A DNA stretch of 37,408 bases from a virus, in IMG/VR virus record IMGVR_UViG_3300042380_000358, positions 1 through 37,408 of that record, one strand, 5' to 3'. The position numbers were made by a program, and so were the translations under genes. Below, piece after piece: positions 3,467-29,967 of the stretch. Numbering within the stretch: the first letter of the stretch is position 1; each line of letters starts with the position of its first letter. The notes beneath the pieces were generated by a model that did no database searches, was not told the origin of the DNA, and saw nothing but the letters and a program-made list of their open reading frames with translations.

Positions 3467-3661
3467 ATGAGCAAGAAGACCGCCAACGACACCCCGGAAC
3501 TGCTGATGCGGCAGATGACGCGCGAGCATCTGCAAAGCCATCACCGCTGGCTCAAGATGCGCCGCCGCAGGGCGGTTTCCTATGGCATCAACGGCTCCGT
3601 CGTCTACATCAAGCGCCGCGAAGCCGTTGACCTTGCGGCCAGGCTTCTGGGGGCGCGATGA
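3467..3661 (+). CDS. Small basic hypothetical protein
   Basis: A 64-aa protein with an upstream GAAGGGG ribosome site. It is strongly basic in the centre (HHRWLKMRRRRAVSYGINGS), followed by a short beta segment (VVYIKRREAVDLAARLL). This suggests nucleic acid binding, but no known fold is certain. Its ATG is 33 bases after the start of the GGAACTT element. The stop overlaps the next ATG. Confidence 0.6.
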   Translation: MSKKTANDTPELLMRQMTREHLQSHHRWLKMRRRRAVSYGINGSVVYIKRREAVDLAARLLGAR

Positions 3662-4373: not shown

Positions 4374-4529
4374 ATGCTCTTCGTCTCCATCTGCGTCGCC
4401 ATACTGGCCGTCTTCATCTTGCCGGATGAAGCCGTGGCCGGCGGCTACGTGCTGAGCCGCGCCGTTGTCGCGCTGCTCTTGTCCGCGACGGCCGGCTTTC
4501 TCTTCGGCGCCAGCCTGGCTTTCCGCTGA
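4374..4529 (+). CDS. Two-TM small membrane protein, paralogue A
   Basis: A 51-aa protein, almost entirely hydrophobic: MLFVSICVAILAVFILPDEA, a glycine-containing turn, then SRAVVALLLSATAGFLFGAS. This gives two transmembrane helices with a short acidic loop. It aligns along its length with the 52-aa protein at 4837 (shared CVA..AV...P.E pattern, L.R.V and AG.L). Size and topology fit a small holin, but no lysis test is possible here. The start is set by AAGGA 8 bases upstream. Confidence 0.6.
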   Translation: MLFVSICVAILAVFILPDEAVAGGYVLSRAVVALLLSATAGFLFGASLAFR

Positions 4530-4531
4530 CC

Positions 4532-4840
4532 ATGCTCCGCTGCACCATCGAGCTCGTCCCCTTCGGCGACGAGTCGCGCAAGCGCACGCTCGGCATCGTC
4601 GAGATCGCGAACGACGCCACGGGCACGCCTGAGCGCGGCAACTACCGCGTGGCACTCACGAAGACGGCCCCATTCCCCGGTGCCCTGCGCGCGGCCTGGA
4701 AGCGCGGCCTGCTCAAGGGCGAAGACGACGACGCCATCGCGGCGTACGTCGAAGGCCACCATCGCACGCAGCGCGGCGTGTACGACCTGCTGTACCGCGC
4801 GCTGCGTGCTTGCGGACTGGACAAGAGGAACCCAGCGTGA
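4532..4840 (+). CDS. Conserved hypothetical phage protein
   Basis: A 102-aa protein that starts two bases after the preceding stop. The first 55 residues look beta-rich (MLRCTIELVPFGDES, then LGIVEIANDATGT and YRVALTKTAPF). The remainder is helical (RAAWKRGLL, DLLYRALRACGL) and ends DKRNPA. I recall similar proteins in many phage accessory operons without a function. It overlaps the GTG of the next gene. Confidence 0.65.
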   Translation: MLRCTIELVPFGDESRKRTLGIVEIANDATGTPERGNYRVALTKTAPFPGALRAAWKRGLLKGEDDDAIAAYVEGHHRTQRGVYDLLYRALRACGLDKRNPA

Positions 4841-4995
4841 TCATCGCCGGATTCTGCGTTGCCGCCGCGGCCGTCCTGATGATGCCCAGAGAGCTCCTGG
4901 AGGTGCCGGAGATCCTCGGCCGCATCGTCATCTGCTTCGTGCTGGCCATGGTGGCCGGCGCACTGCTTGCCCTTGGGCTGGGGAGTCTGCCGTGA
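4837..4995 (+). CDS. Two-TM small membrane protein, paralogue B
   Basis: A 52-aa hydrophobic protein from the GTG at 4837 (GTGA overlap). It has two transmembrane segments, IIAGFCVAAAAVLMM and ILGRIVICFVLAMVAGALLA, joined by an acidic turn. It resembles the protein at 4374-4529. It is coupled upstream to the 4532 gene and downstream to the second Tat-signal gene. A holin-like or membrane-anchoring role is possible but not shown. Confidence 0.6.
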   Translation: MIIAGFCVAAAAVLMMPRELLEVPEILGRIVICFVLAMVAGALLALGLGSLP

Positions 4996-5135
4996 CCATT
5001 GCGCGACGCGGCTTCCTGGCCGCAATGCTCGCGGCATCCGCCGCACCCGCCATCGTCAGCGCCTCGTCGCTGATGCCGATCTACGTGCCGCGGCGGGAGA
5101 TCCTGACGCCGGACATGCTGCGGGCCGAGGAATGA
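4992..5135 (+). CDS. Tat-signal-like mini-protein
   Basis: A 47-aa protein from the GTG at 4992, overlapping the previous stop. It begins VTIARRGFLAAMLAASAAPA: twin arginines, a hydrophobic core and a likely cleavage site after V-S-A near residue 24. Only about 23 residues follow (SSLMPIYVPRREILTPDM and on), so the mature product would be a short peptide. It matches the first 35 residues of the 1716-2192 protein at many positions, including SLM and VP after the signal. It may be a truncated paralogue: the cassette-like element starts 4 bases after its stop and could have cut it short. Confidence 0.6.
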   Translation: MTIARRGFLAAMLAASAAPAIVSASSLMPIYVPRREILTPDMLRAEE

Positions 5136-5142
5136 TGGGTTA

Positions 5143-5166
5143 GGCGCGTGCCCCAATCTACGCGCC
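5143..5166. repeat. 7-bp inverted repeat at cassette start
   Basis: GGCGCGT (5143-5149) and ACGCGCC (5160-5166) are perfect inverse complements with a 10-base loop. The stem covers the in-frame GTG at 5148, which argues that translation starts at the later GTG (5187). It sits just inside the left boundary of the cassette-like unit. Confidence 0.45.
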
Positions 5167-5186
5167 GACGTTGCAGGACTACAGAC

Positions 5187-5429
5187 GTGAACTTTGCCCC
5201 GCACGAACAGCGCGTGATCGACGAGCACCGCGACCTGACAGAGAAGCTGAACAAGCTGCGCGAGTTCTTCGACACGCCAGTGTTCCGAGGCCTCACCGAA
5301 GCCGAGCAGATGCGCCTGCGAGCGCAGGCCGGATTCATGGACGGCTACCAAGACATGCTGCGCGAGCGCATCAGCGCCTTCATGCGCGCACACGCTGAAG
5401 CTGACGGGCCTTCAGTGGTGGCGGGCTGA
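5187..5429 (+). CDS. crAss001_48-like small protein in cassette
   Basis: An 80-aa helical protein. I chose the GTG at 5187 because AGGA lies about 10 bases upstream and homologous proteins I recall begin near this point; an in-frame GTG at 5148 is blocked by a hairpin. The sequence (HEQRVIDEHRDLTEKLNKLR, EFFDTPVFRGLTEAEQMRLR, AQAGFMDGYQDMLRERISAF) fits the family recalled as crAss001_48-related, found in many phages. It resembles residues 170-225 of the 554-1261 protein. It is the only gene in the cassette-like unit and its stop is five bases before the attC-like site. No function known. Confidence 0.7.
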   Translation: MNFAPHEQRVIDEHRDLTEKLNKLREFFDTPVFRGLTEAEQMRLRAQAGFMDGYQDMLRERISAFMRAHAEADGPSVVAG

Positions 5430-5433
5430 AAGC

Positions 5434-5493
5434 GCCCAACCCCAAGCTGAGCTGCGCGGCCACCGGCCGCGTCAGCTCGAGCGACGGTTAGGC
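5434..5493 (+). other. attC-like recombination site (60 bp)
   Basis: R'' box GCCCAAC (5434-5440, fits RYYYAAC) and R' box GTTAGGC (5487-5493, fits GTTRRRY) pair at six of seven positions. Inside are unpaired spacers (5441-5445 and 5483-5486), then a stem of 3, 6 and 7 bp: GCT/AGC, GAGCTG/CAGCTC, CGCGGCC/GGCCGCG. The stem has single-base bulges at G5479 and T5472 and a three-base ACC loop. Box consensus, 60-bp length, unpaired central spacers and extrahelical bases are the defining features of integron attC sites. The side on which the bulges lie should be checked against a structural model. A plain terminator is the alternative. Confidence 0.65.
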
Positions 5494-5529: not shown

Positions 5530-5568
5530 ATGGACAAGCCATTCTTCCTCGCGAGATCCAAGACATGA
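5530..5568 (+). CDS. Possible 12-aa leader peptide
   Basis: ATG at 5530 preceded by GGAGG (5520-5524, good spacing) opens a 12-codon frame MDKPFFLARSKT whose stop overlaps the ATG at 5565 as ATGA. Its start is 33 bases after the start of the GGAACTT element at 5497, the same spacing as the gene at 3467. It could be a translational-coupling leader for the next gene, or the remnant of a longer gene. Confidence 0.3.
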   Translation: MDKPFFLARSKT

Positions 5569-5798
5569 CCACCGGCAACCCGAAAGAGGCGGTTCGGGCC
5601 GCCCCGCAGCCAGATGTGGCGCCGCAAGGGGCCGCTCCAGAAGCCGCCAACTTCTTCCGCCGAGCCCTCGAGGACTTGGTGGCCAGCGCCAAGGAGTGCG
5701 GCCTGGTGCTCACCGTGGAGCAGGTCAACCTGCAGCCGCCTCGGATGGGTCACTACGAGACTCTGGTGTCGGTTCGTCCTGCGCGCGGGAGGTACTGA
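5565..5798 (+). CDS. Conserved hypothetical phage protein
   Basis: A 77-aa protein from the ATG at 5565, whose overlap with the small frame before it suggests coupled translation. The N-terminal 25 residues are alanine- and proline-rich and disordered. Then comes a helix (NFFRRALEDLVASAKECGL) and a beta segment (LVLTVEQVNLQPPRMGHYET LVSVR, written here in two parts). I recall the LTVEQ.PLQP..MG.Y.T pattern from many phage accessory proteins without known function. The stop overlaps the next ATG by one base. Confidence 0.65.
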   Translation: MTTGNPKEAVRAAPQPDVAPQGAAPEAANFFRRALEDLVASAKECGLVLTVEQVNLQPPRMGHYETLVSVRPARGRY

Positions 5799-6483: not shown

Positions 6484-6675
6484 ATGAGCACCAGCATCAA
6501 ACGCCGCCACCCAGCCGTCCAGGCCGCCATCGAGGCCTGGGCTGAGCACCAGCGCCGAGAGGCCGCGCGCAAGTCCCTCGTCGACGACGTCATGCGCCAG
6601 CTGCGAGCGAACGCCGACGCGCGCATGAAGCGAGATGCCGCGGCTGCGATCAAGAAGGCGAAGCGCGGGCGATGA
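6484..6675 (+). CDS. Small charged helical protein
   Basis: A 63-aa protein, nearly all helix and rich in Lys, Arg and Ala (AAIEAWAEHQRREAARKSLV; ADARMKRDAAAAIKKAKRGR). The stop overlaps the terminase ATG as ATGA, so it is probably translated together with TerL. Position directly before TerL would allow a packaging role, but the sequence shows none and the TerS-like protein at 2224 is the better partner. Confidence 0.55.
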   Translation: MSTSIKRRHPAVQAAIEAWAEHQRREAARKSLVDDVMRQLRANADARMKRDAAAAIKKAKRGR

Positions 6676-9017
6676 GCGAGAAGGACTACCGCCTCGCCGG
6701 GCTGCAGTTGCTGCGGGACAATCTGGAGGTCTTCTGCGCGCACTGCCTGAAGATCAAAGACCAGCAGGGCAAGATGGTCCCGTTCATCTGGAACCCGGGC
6801 CAGCACCACATACACGCCTCGCTTGAGAAGCAGCGCGAGGAGACTGGGATGGTCCGCGCCCTGATCCTCAAGGGCCGCCAGCTCGGGGCATGTTTTGCCC
6901 CGCACCACAAGGTTTTGATGGAGGATCTTGGCTGGCGCGATATCGGCGACATCAAAGTCGGTGACAAGGTAGTTGCAGTCGACGAGATGATCGGCGACTC
7001 CGGCCAGAGCAAGGCTGGGCGCTCCCTGTGCCGCCGCTACAAGACGGCGGTCGTCGAGTTTGTCGCTCGACACCTCAAGATGGCCCACAAGGTGCGGCTG
7101 GTGTCCGGGCGCGAGCTCGTCGTTACCGGCGACCATCGCATGCTGTCGAGGCAGCGCGGGGGCGTCAGCGCTGTCTGGCGCGAGGTCTGCAACATGCAGC
7201 CCGGCGACTTCATCAGGTCGGCCGTGCGGCCGCCGCCGGAAGCGCTGACGTACGAGGACGGCTGGTTCGCGGGCATCATCGACGGAGAGGGCTGCAGGTC
7301 AAGCCCGAGCGAGAGCTCCGTGTCTGTGTCGGTGAGCCAGGTTGAGGGCCCGGTCTTGGAGCGCATCAAGGCCTACCTCGGCTCTATTGATGTCCGCTAC
7401 TACGACACAGCCGACACCCGCGAGGCCGGGACATCATCGAAGCTCGGCACCAAGGTTGTGCATCGAATCGAGATCGGCCGCCTCGCAGACGTGGTGCACC
7501 TTATGAACCGATGCCGCACGTCGCGCATCCGCTTCAGCGCGGCCGACCTTGAGTGCCGAAAGATCGGCGGCAACCGCACCCCAGAGGGTGAAGGCAAGCA
7601 GTCTTCTTGGGATGAGATCGTGGGCATCGAGCCCGTCGGCGAGATCGAAGTGGTGGACCTGCAGACATCGGCGAAGACGTACATCGTCGAGGGCCTGGTC
7701 TCGCACAACTCGACTTACATCGCCGCGAGGTATTACCAAAAAACCACCACGCGGCCAGGTCAGTCGGCATTTATCCTGGCCCACGAGCAGAAGGCAACCG
7801 ACAACCTGTACCAGATGGTGCGGCGTTATCACGACCACAACCCGATGCCGGTCAGCACAGGCGCCACAAACGCCAAGGAACTGATCTTCGACAAACTCGA
7901 TGGCGGCTACAAGCTGGCGACCGCAGGCACCAAGGACGTCGGCCGATCAAACACTGCGCAGTTGATCCACGCCTCAGAGGCCGCGTTCTACGACAACGCC
8001 GAGATGCACATGGCCGGCATTGGCAACACAGTGGCCGAGTTGCCTGGCACAGAAATCATCATGGAGTCGACGGCCAATGGCGCCGGCGGCAACTACTTCC
8101 ACAAGATGTGGGAGGCGGCGGCCGCTGGCAAGAACAAGTACATCAACATCTTCGTGCCCTGGTATTGGATTGAGACCCTCAGATCCAAGCCGAGATCCAA
8201 CCTAAAGCTCTCGCCAGATGACGAGCTGCTGATGAAACTTTATGGCCTGAGCCTGGAGCAGATGCAGTGGTACATCGACAAGCGATCAAGCTATGGCGAA
8301 GGCTTTGATTGGTTGGCGCGGCAAGAGTTTCCGATGTGTGAAAGTGAGGCTTTTCAAAGCCCAACACGCAACCCGCTAGTCAGTCCGCACTACGTCCACG
8401 CCGCCTCCACAAGCGACTACTACGACGAGTCTGGCGCCCTGATCATCGGCTGCGACCCCGCGAGCGATGGCGCCGGCACCAAGGACCGCACCTGCATCGT
8501 CTTCCGCCGCGGCCGCGTCGTCTTCCGCGTGGAGTACCACGAGAAGCTGAACTCCATGCAGGTCGCCGGCAAGCTGGCCGACTACTACCGCGAGTTCCAC
8601 CCGGACGCGATGTTCGTCGACAAGGGCGGCATCGGCACCGGCATCGTCGACCGCCTACAGGAGCTGAACGTCCCCGTGGTGGGCGTGATGTTCGGCCAGG
8701 CCGCCAGCGACAGCGAGATCTACGCCAACAAGAAGGCCGAGATCTGGTGGCGCATGAAGGACTGGTTCGAGGAACAGCCTGTCCGCATCGTCAACAACCC
8801 CGCGTTCATCGCCGACATCTGCGCGCCGCAGCCCGACACGTCCAGCAACGGCCGCAAGCTGCTCGAGCCGAAGGAGAAGCTCGAGAGGCGAGGCATCCGC
8901 AGCCCGGACGGTGGCGACGCGCTGGCCTTGACGTTCGCCGAGTTCGTGCTGTCGAAGGCTGCGATGGCGGGCCGCGGCGGATCCAGCTACGAGGCGCCGT
9001 CGAAGGCGGGGTACTGA
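6672..9017 (+). CDS. terL: Terminase large subunit with intein
   Basis: A 781-aa precursor; removing the intein (residues 74-346) leaves a 508-aa ATPase-nuclease, a normal size for TerL. It packages DNA through the portal into the procapsid. The Walker A-type segment KGRQLGA...ST is split exactly by the intein. A Walker B-like segment IHASE is at residues 432-436. The RNase H-like nuclease has its three acidic motifs: GCDPASDG (D595), the MFVDKGGIG region, and SPDGGDAL (D749). The N-terminus (NPGQHHIHASLEKQREETGM) fits related podovirus terminases. Activity should depend on protein splicing because the P-loop is interrupted. Spanins follow 53 bases downstream. Confidence 0.92.
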   Translation: MSEKDYRLAGLQLLRDNLEVFCAHCLKIKDQQGKMVPFIWNPGQHHIHASLEKQREETGMVRALILKGRQLGACFAPHHKVLMEDLGWRDIGDIKVGDKVVAVDEMIGDSGQSKAGRSLCRRYKTAVVEFVARHLKMAHKVRLVSGRELVVTGDHRMLSRQRGGVSAVWREVCNMQPGDFIRSAVRPPPEALTYEDGWFAGIIDGEGCRSSPSESSVSVSVSQVEGPVLERIKAYLGSIDVRYYDTADTREAGTSSKLGTKVVHRIEIGRLADVVHLMNRCRTSRIRFSAADLECRKIGGNRTPEGEGKQSSWDEIVGIEPVGEIEVVDLQTSAKTYIVEGLVSHNSTYIAARYYQKTTTRPGQSAFILAHEQKATDNLYQMVRRYHDHNPMPVSTGATNAKELIFDKLDGGYKLATAGTKDVGRSNTAQLIHASEAAFYDNAEMHMAGIGNTVAELPGTEIIMESTANGAGGNYFHKMWEAAAAGKNKYINIFVPWYWIETLRSKPRSNLKLSPDDELLMKLYGLSLEQMQWYIDKRSSYGEGFDWLARQEFPMCESEAFQSPTRNPLVSPHYVHAASTSDYYDESGALIIGCDPASDGAGTKDRTCIVFRRGRVVFRVEYHEKLNSMQVAGKLADYYREFHPDAMFVDKGGIGTGIVDRLQELNVPVVGVMFGQAASDSEIYANKKAEIWWRMKDWFEEQPVRIVNNPAFIADICAPQPDTSSNGRKLLEPKEKLERRGIRSPDGGDALALTFAEFVLSKAAMAGRGGSSYEAPSKAGY
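6891..7709 (+). mobile_element. In-frame intein with LAGLIDADG-type endonuclease
   Basis: A 273-residue intein inside TerL. It starts with Cys74 (CFAPHHKVLMEDLGWRDIGD: block A), has a block B T-x-x-H motif (VTGDHRML), one clear LAGLIDADG-type motif (WFAGIIDGEG, residues about 198-207), and ends TYIVEGLVSHN followed by Ser347 as the +1 nucleophile. These are all the residues of a class 1 intein that can splice. A second LAGLIDADG motif is not obvious, so the endonuclease may be degenerate or act as a dimer. Insertion at the nucleotide-binding loop is a well known intein site. Confidence 0.92.
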
Positions 9018-28710: not shown

Positions 28711-29237
28711 CGGTGCCGCGCCGCATGTGGAAGGGCCTGCCGACGGGCGATGCGCCGCGCGTCGAGCCTGTGCGCGCCTTCGGCTGGATCGTGCACAAGC
28801 ACACCCTGCCGCCGGGTGGCCGACTCATCCTGGTCTCGACGCAGGCCGTGTCGCGAGAGCGCGCGCCGAACCTGGCGATCTACACCGCAGGCCGTGGTGT
28901 CGTCACCAACGACACCGTCGGCCCGATGCCAGACCGCGAGCCCGGCATGTTCACCGGCGACCGACCCGATCACCCGGCCGGCACCACCACGATCGCGGCC
29001 CCCGACGGGCTTGAGTTCTGGTGCTTCAACTGGCACGCCAACCGAGGCGCTCTCCCGGCGGCCAGCCCGCTTCGCGCCGCGGACGCGGAATTGGTAGAGC
29101 TGCAGGCCGGGCAGCGAGTTCTACTGTGCACCGGCGCGCTTGGCGAGTTCGGTGTCGGGCCCTTCGTTGCGCCCGGCGGCCCGCTCGTTGCGCGCGGCGC
29201 CGTGTACGGCTTCTTGATCGAGGGCGATCGTGGGTAG
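28707..29237 (+). CDS. Hypothetical beta-rich protein, possible cupin
   Basis: A 176-aa protein from ATG 28707 (ATGA). Alternating beta segments (AFGWIVHKHTLPPGGRLILV; GLEFWCFNWHANRGAL; GQRVLLCTGALGEFGVGPFV) with conserved histidines and glycines suggest a jelly-roll fold, perhaps cupin-like. No firm family. It is fused by overlap to the desaturase gene, whose GTG lies inside its last three codons, so the two may be moved or expressed together. Confidence 0.55.
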   Translation: MTVPRRMWKGLPTGDAPRVEPVRAFGWIVHKHTLPPGGRLILVSTQAVSRERAPNLAIYTAGRGVVTNDTVGPMPDREPGMFTGDRPDHPAGTTTIAAPDGLEFWCFNWHANRGALPAASPLRAADAELVELQAGQRVLLCTGALGEFGVGPFVAPGGPLVARGAVYGFLIEGDRG

Positions 29238-29967
29238 ACAACCTCTGTGGATGATCTCTGTCGGGCACCTGGCCGGGCTTGCCGGCGTCGTGCTGGGTGT
29301 CTGGCTCATCGCGACAGGCGCCGCGAGCCAGTGGTGGCTGCTCGCCTGGGCGGCGTTTCACCTGCTCGGCTCGCTGATGCTGTCCGTCGGGCTGCACCGC
29401 TACTTCTCGCACGGCTCGTTCAAGACCACGCCTTTCTGGCACAACTTCATGGCGCTCTACAGCGTGCTACTGCTCAACGGCAGCCCTCACGGCTGGGCTG
29501 CAGCGCATAACGCGCACCACGCCTTCTCAGACACCGACCGCGACCCGCACATCGCCGACTGGACGTACCTTGTGTGGAAGCGATACCGCAGCACGCCGCT
29601 GGTGACGCGCGGCCTGCGCAGGCTGGCCGGCGACCCAGTGGTGGCCTTCGTGCACCGCACAGGCTTGTGGCTGTGGCTGGCGTTTACAGCCCTTTTGCTG
29701 TGGGCGTCGCCAGAGGCCTACCTGTTCGCCTACCTGATGCCGCTCGGCAGCGTTCACCTGATCGGCGCGCTGCACCAGGTCACAAGCCACAAGAACCTGG
29801 CGCCGCGCGACATCTGGTGGCTCGAGCTCGTCCTGCCCGCGTGCGGCGAGTGGCTCCACAAGACACACCACGACCACCCCGGGCGGAGCGACTTCCGCAC
29901 GAAGTGGTGGCACGTTGATCTCGGCGCTGCGCTCGTCCGGGCGATCAGCGTCAACACGAAGAGCTGA
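29230..29967 (+). CDS. Fatty acid desaturase
   Basis: A 245-aa membrane protein from GTG 29230; ATG 29251 is an alternative start. It carries the three histidine boxes of acyl-CoA/acyl-lipid desaturases: H56RYFSH61, H93NAHH97 and H210KTHH214, which bind the di-iron centre, plus hydrophobic segments (residues about 10-55, 146-182). In this family the enzyme introduces a double bond in an acyl chain, often at carbon 9, with ferredoxin or cytochrome b5 as donor; none is encoded here. At 245 aa it is a compact form. It lies between a beta-rich unknown gene and a fibre gene, so it is an auxiliary metabolic gene in the tail region. Confidence 0.9.
   Translation: MGRQPLWMISVGHLAGLAGVVLGVWLIATGAASQWWLLAWAAFHLLGSLMLSVGLHRYFSHGSFKTTPFWHNFMALYSVLLLNGSPHGWAAAHNAHHAFSDTDRDPHIADWTYLVWKRYRSTPLVTRGLRRLAGDPVVAFVHRTGLWLWLAFTALLLWASPEAYLFAYLMPLGSVHLIGALHQVTSHKNLAPRDIWWLELVLPACGEWLHKTHHDHPGRSDFRTKWWHVDLGAALVRAISVNTKS

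Follow-up and report, generated by a model that had tools for sequence, protein, structure and literature searches.

An integron attC site of inverted polarity at a probable cassette locus of a phage genome

Introduction

What does a hairpin bounded by integron-like boxes do between the terminase genes of a phage, and to which of its neighbouring genes does it belong? Phage attCs without an IntI (CALINs) are known from Qi et al. 2023 (PMC9892861), who tested six phage attCs with IntI1 and saw five of them recombine; the same study describes the typical gene/attC direction in TJE1 and PH101 and divergent-direction attCs in P12002L. Here, we analysed an uncultivated-virus record of 37,408 bases, taken over its whole length and hereafter called the window, which encodes small and large terminase subunits, a head-tail connector/portal, a major head protein, an internal virion protein and a tail fibre. 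The locus in question is placed between the two terminase genes and has the following features (a slash marks the predicted cut; CM, covariance model; L007, L008, G001, related phage contigs).

2224-2841: small terminase gene
4532-4840, plus strand: conserved left flank gene of the variable locus, with 90% identical DNA in L008, followed there by a different attC
4992-5135, plus strand: short, probably truncated Tat-signal open reading frame with its stop inside the attC remnant
5129-5145, minus strand: remnant, ~17 bp, of the attC proper to the cargo gene and upstream of it; the left GTTAGGC lies within it (homology to a G001 attC end; weak CM match at 5101-5145, 15.2 bits)
5187-5429, plus strand: cargo gene of the crAss001_48 family, 80 aa
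5434-5493, minus strand: intact attC site, 60 bp, with canonical polarity on that strand
5434-5440, minus strand: R' box, GCCCAAC on plus and GTTGGGC on minus; predicted cut 5439/5440, where L007 homology starts
5472-5479, plus strand: extrahelical bases T5472 and G5479, spaced T-N6-G, on the folded plus strand (recombinogenic 'bottom' strand), located as bulges in a box-plus-hairpin search
5487-5493, minus strand: R'' box, GTTAGGC on plus and GCCTAAC on minus
5566-5798, plus strand: right-hand gene, inherited with the window attC as an attC + gene unit (common to L007 from the cut point on)
6672-9017: large terminase gene

Two further observations concern the phage itself. The large terminase gene appears to carry an in-frame intein-like insert that starts CFAPHHKV and ends VEGLVSHN/S (the slash here marking its end); the L007 terminase is ~0.8 kb shorter, apparently without this insert, and that of L008 is full-length. 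Among the tail-region genes, the open reading frame at 29230-29967 resembles a fatty-acid desaturase (histidine motifs HRYFSHGS and HNAHH) and is a possible auxiliary metabolic gene; its sole PHROG match, to an entry of unknown function, is weak. Neither an Rfam search of the window at the gathering threshold nor DNA searches of the window region and one array against deposited phages returned a match.

Results

Identity and fold of the hairpin

Our box-plus-hairpin search over the 37.4 kb revealed a single candidate, at 5434-5493, in which R'' and R' boxes of the forms RYYYAAC and GTTRRRY bound an imperfect hairpin with T-N6-G extrahelical bases. The predicted fold comprises a 16-bp stem (7 + 6 + 3 bp) with single-base bulges at T5472 and G5479, a 3-base ACC loop and unpaired central spacers, so that an earlier note made from the letters of this DNA had described the site correctly from boxes to loop. 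The plus strand, folded as DNA, reached a z-score of -4.8 and the minus strand of 5433-5493 a z-score of -4.9; for neither strand did any of 200 shuffles fold as well. In addition, a CM was built solely from ten aligned class 1 resistance-integron attCs taken from annotated plasmids, and this model gave the site 34.6 bits (E 8e-6) on the minus strand and 9.3 bits on the plus strand (filters off). The score, which comes from our own class 1 model and not from IntegronFinder or HattCI, lies above the 20-bit threshold of Qi et al. 2023 and bears out the attC-type architecture proposed in the earlier note, which had named a covariance model as a check. The boxes, the hairpin, the T-N6-G extrahelical bases and the CM score are likewise those of class 1 attCs of the aadA1, aadA2 and aadB type. 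Judged by these sequence features, the hairpin is a genuine integron attC site.

Polarity of the site and its predicted cut

The window attC lies on the minus strand and the cargo gene on the plus strand, opposite to each other. On the gene strand, both bulges fall in the right arm, which is the reverse of a normal cassette as represented by the class 1 controls, and the plus strand of the site reads like a class 1 bottom strand (T5472-N6-G5479). Such a T-N6-G arrangement on the folded bottom strand characterizes the class best excised by IntI1 (PMC3053210), and strand choice in integrons is set by the unpaired features, the bottom strand being preferred ~1000-fold (PMC8946536). An integrase, if it uses the site, should therefore fold the plus strand and cut the left box at 5439/5440, and by this prediction the attC belongs with the DNA to its right. 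The earlier note had instead phased the cassette as 5139-5487, with the attC at its 3' end. In a canonical cassette, the gene is followed by an attC in the same orientation; here, the attC is on minus, the gene is on plus, and the gene's unit has its attC upstream. That phasing, which is off because the attC is on the minus strand and the plus strand is class 1 bottom-like, is contradicted by the CM strand, by the bulge polarity, by the sibling L007 and by the shared acb2 units described below.

Sibling phages at the same locus

Using the pattern CTTACTGGTCGTGGCGAGGTC and the terminase protein, we recovered two relatives, L007 and L008, besides a 99.95% identical contig. L007 has the window attC and everything to its right in common with the window and a different gene to the left of the box, and the identity begins exactly at the predicted cut 5439/5440. 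L008 has the left gene (to ~4868) and the right gene (from ~5598) in common with the window, with another minus-strand attC between them. Together, these comparisons mark the locus as a hot spot for cassettes among these phages. The terminase relatives scanned among IMG/VR contigs had no attC, indicating that this terminase lineage does not have the trait as a rule, and the stretches read of two deposited Manatee Spring phages, whose terminase or crAss001_48 genes are related, held none. An exact empty site for the crAss001_48 gene, which had been expected to join G5139 to T5488, was not seen in either of the two relatives: L007 carries another gene to the left of the window attC, and the site is missing from L008.

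The cargo gene and its worn attC

The cargo protein matched PF21825 (E 6.7e-18), the crAss001_48 family, which is common in phages, in agreement with the phage-type family first assigned to it. Relatives were found in G001 (95% amino-acid identity), in G011 and in a Hydrogenophaga metagenome-assembled genome (MAG). In G001 (two copies) and G011, the gene is accompanied by an upstream attC, and in the Hydrogenophaga MAG by half of one, which falls below CM significance. In the latter, the phage-type cassette gene and its half-attC (L075, 3500-3835) sit in a bacterial contig without a full array. The GTTAGGC copies noted at both ends of the presumed cassette were indeed found, at 5139-5145 and 5487-5493, but the left one is the end of the decayed attC 5129-5145 and not an isolated box. 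The crAss001_48 gene of the window probably arrived as an attC + gene unit that has since lost most of its own attC, which leaves it fixed. The suspected truncation of the neighbouring Tat-signal gene is supported by a distant homologue in L049 that is much longer. As a separate observation, the leader after GTTAGGC (GGCGCGTGCCCC..CACGCGCC) is in itself a small, conserved inverted repeat ahead of the cargo gene, at 5140-5172 in the window and at 3622-3655 and 3955-3985 in L003, the contig of G001.

Phage cassette arrays and their polarity

In G001, whose contig encodes a portal, a terminase, a helicase and a phage integrase, the 95% identical cargo protein lies within a tandem array of five attCs. 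Using the attC end GAATGAGGGGTTAGGC as a query revealed further IMG/VR contigs with arrays of 2-14 sites. Portal genes are present on five array contigs (G001, G008, G010, G011 and G013), terminase in G001 and G010, and endolysin in G008. The phage array contigs that we searched contained no integron integrase, and the window record gave no match to TIGR02249 and hence holds no complete integron (intI + attI + Pc). With one full site and the 15.2-bit remnant, the window also falls short of a CALIN (at least two attCs within a few kb, no intI), a description that fits the related array phages. The cassette is therefore not the lone unit that it had first seemed: at least 24 phage contigs have such sites, most of them as arrays. 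The window by itself, with one full attC, would be called a single stray site; it is a worn, partly decayed member of a larger phage array group, and the interest lies in that group.

Three attC patterns served to collect the phage contigs, together with one cassette protein and, from the window, the proteins of the terminase, the cargo gene and the flanking genes; the array contigs are all metagenomic and unverified. Gene strands were called by a simple amino-acid composition score, which left 19 phage intervals ambiguous. In the first six array contigs, 36 genes were opposite to the attC and 1 was on the same strand, and eighteen further contigs added 53 opposite and 0 same, so that across the 24 IMG/VR contigs 88 of 89 callable genes run opposite to their attC. 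By comparison, the class 1 plasmid controls gave 9 same and 0 opposite, and in ten Comamonadaceae arrays 84 of 90 genes were on the attC strand (6 opposite). To avoid selection on attC sequence, we also chose 80 viral loci by the Acb2/Tad1 protein alone; 60 attCs were found in 14 of these loci, and each of the 60 runs opposite to the gene. The same inverted attCs occur in the deposited circular phage MW202573. Tetrasphaera phage TJE1 showed canonical polarity by the same test, and the inversion is thus not a rule for all phages.

The mobile unit

An Acb2/Tad1 gene (PF24729) is common to G009, L153 and L154, where the identity runs from the left box of its upstream attC to the left box of the next attC. 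As an attC-flanked unit, acb2 was found in at least six phage contigs (G009, 4498-4782; L160; L161; L164; L180; L237). Across six contigs, the 57-bp attC upstream of acb2 is, from AAC onward, essentially identical next to unrelated left neighbours, and identity rises from background to 100% at GCCN/AAC, the predicted cut. On the evidence of these alignments, the mobile unit is the attC plus the gene behind (right of) it. The possibility that some unusual event had joined an attC to new genes at R'' was considered and dropped, since inverted units are the simpler explanation. The shared cargo is a member of the Acb2/Tad1 family of anti-CBASS/anti-Thoeris sponge genes of phages and differs in the array phages in that it forms a mobile unit between flanking attCs.

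Start codons in attC loops

Among 55 long phage attCs (80-140 nt), 29 have a loop that contains, on the gene strand, a ribosome-binding site and a start codon open to the end of the attC, and 0 of the 55 have the same start signal on the opposite strand. For long bacterial attCs, a loop start was found in 5/37 on the gene strand and 0/37 on the other. The leaders that begin in these loops (e.g. ..PAVGPVEPTVR and ..SNEGLG) continue into the gene or end a short way ahead of it. Shine-Dalgarno sequences with a start codon in a long-attC loop were found in G008, G009, G010, G011, G012, L154, L160, L172, L173, L183, L184, L227 and L237; the 60-bp attC of the window has no loop start codon.

Discussion

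We favour, with a probability of roughly 0.85, the reading that the hairpin is a functional-type attC in a phage cassette locus, inverted with respect to phage transcription, and that attC + gene units are exchanged between phages by an integron integrase acting in trans. Such an integrase, presumably supplied by the host, would act on the folded gene strand of the attC, cut its left box (gene-strand GCCTAA/C; in the window, at 5439/5440) and so exchange units between phages, and the cassettes would be transcribed from phage promoters. The comparisons show the attC identity, the inverted polarity, the unit boundaries and the units common to different phages; the host IntI as catalyst and the phage promoters are inferred. 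Catalysis by a host IntI is plausible. Comamonadaceae genomes are rich in attCs (137/201), and the host link to this family rests mainly on one MAG (Hydrogenophaga). Their sedentary chromosomal integrons resemble the phage arrays in having attCs recognised by the same CM and long arrays of small genes, but differ in gene direction, and the two phage cargo families that we examined are nearly absent from the genomes of this family, occurring in 5 and 4 of 401 Comamonadaceae genomes. No attC was found at the scanned Comamonadaceae loci that match the cargo families. The rarity of these families and the lack of attCs at their loci fit a phage pool largely apart from the host arrays, and the flow of cassettes from phage to host pools, raised earlier as a real possibility, looks minor.

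How, then, could the same pattern arise otherwise? The hairpins might be real homologous repeats between which homologous recombination, ordinary or phage-coded, exchanges the cassettes: the phage contigs that we searched have no integrase, and phage attCs, often 70-100% alike, could provide the homology. However, homologous recombination would break anywhere within repeats of 57-120 bp, and the breakpoints instead fall at one spot, the predicted integrase cut, as seen in six left contexts, at the next left box on the right, and between the window and L007; nor does it offer a reason for the retained extrahelical bases and boxes. We consider it unlikely. Still less probable is the earlier note's proposal of a canonical host integron cassette, gene then attC at 5139-5487, inserted into the phage. 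The boxes at both ends and the leader in common with the array phage G001 would suit it, but the polarity is inverted, the cargo gene travels with an upstream attC (twice in G001, and in G011), and the window attC is present in L007 without the crAss001_48 gene.

Two other explanations seem to us very improbable, and about equally so. The strong GC stem would agree with a terminator of transcription, with a hairpin of regulatory function or with a palindrome arisen by chance in GC-rich DNA, and attCs may themselves act as weak terminators (PMC9892861); against this, the sequence after the stem, GACGGTTAGGCCGC, lacks the T run that together with a GC hairpin marks an intrinsic terminator, the hairpin is unique in the window, its CM match has an E-value of 8e-6, no shuffle folds as well, and the site is a unit boundary between sibling phages. 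Likewise, IMG/VR is metagenomic and uncurated, and some array contigs are short, so that the arrays might be bacterial integrons misfiled as viral and the window attC host contamination. Yet portal genes are carried by five of the array contigs, inverted attCs of this kind also occur in a deposited circular phage, the window site is enclosed by the two terminase genes, and polarity is the other way round in bacterial arrays of the likely host family.

The exchange of inverted attC + gene units thus remains the reading that we prefer, and its relation to known systems can be stated in terms of polarity. In class 1 integrons, the site comes after the gene on the same strand (9/9); in the phage group of the window, it comes before the gene on the opposite strand. 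The phage CALINs of Qi et al. 2023 (PMC9892861) are alike in being attCs in phage genomes without an IntI, and their list includes MW202573, here found inverted, but the main text of that study does not describe systematic inversion, units common to phages or attC-loop start codons. In the papers that we searched, which include few subscription papers and preprints, neither systematic inversion nor attC-first units common to phages nor start codons in attC loops are reported.

More broadly, we regard it as somewhat more probable than the contrary that a group of podovirus-like phages has a private cassette system, in which inverted attCs lie 5' of anti-defence and other small genes, often with a ribosome-binding site and start codon in the loop, and are moved by host integron integrases. 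If so, the inversion would separate host and phage cassettes, because a host cassette inserted here would be antisense. The inversion also makes the coding strand the recombinogenic one, and wherever replication and transcription are co-directional this would be the lagging-strand template. Placement on the lagging-strand template favours attC folding (PMC8946536), and under co-directional replication the inversion could raise cassette mobility.

Phage attCs have hitherto been known as scattered curiosities; there is now comparative evidence of whole-cassette exchange with breakpoints at the integrase cut, including an Acb2/Tad1 counter-defence gene, which suggests that phages have their own pool of cassettes and exchange genes by way of it. 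The reversed polarity offers a simple, testable rule for telling phage from host cassettes, and annotation that assumes a gene-then-attC order will mis-phase these arrays. The polarity also ties phage mosaicism to host integron integrases, and the phage arrays are where to look for new anti-defence genes.
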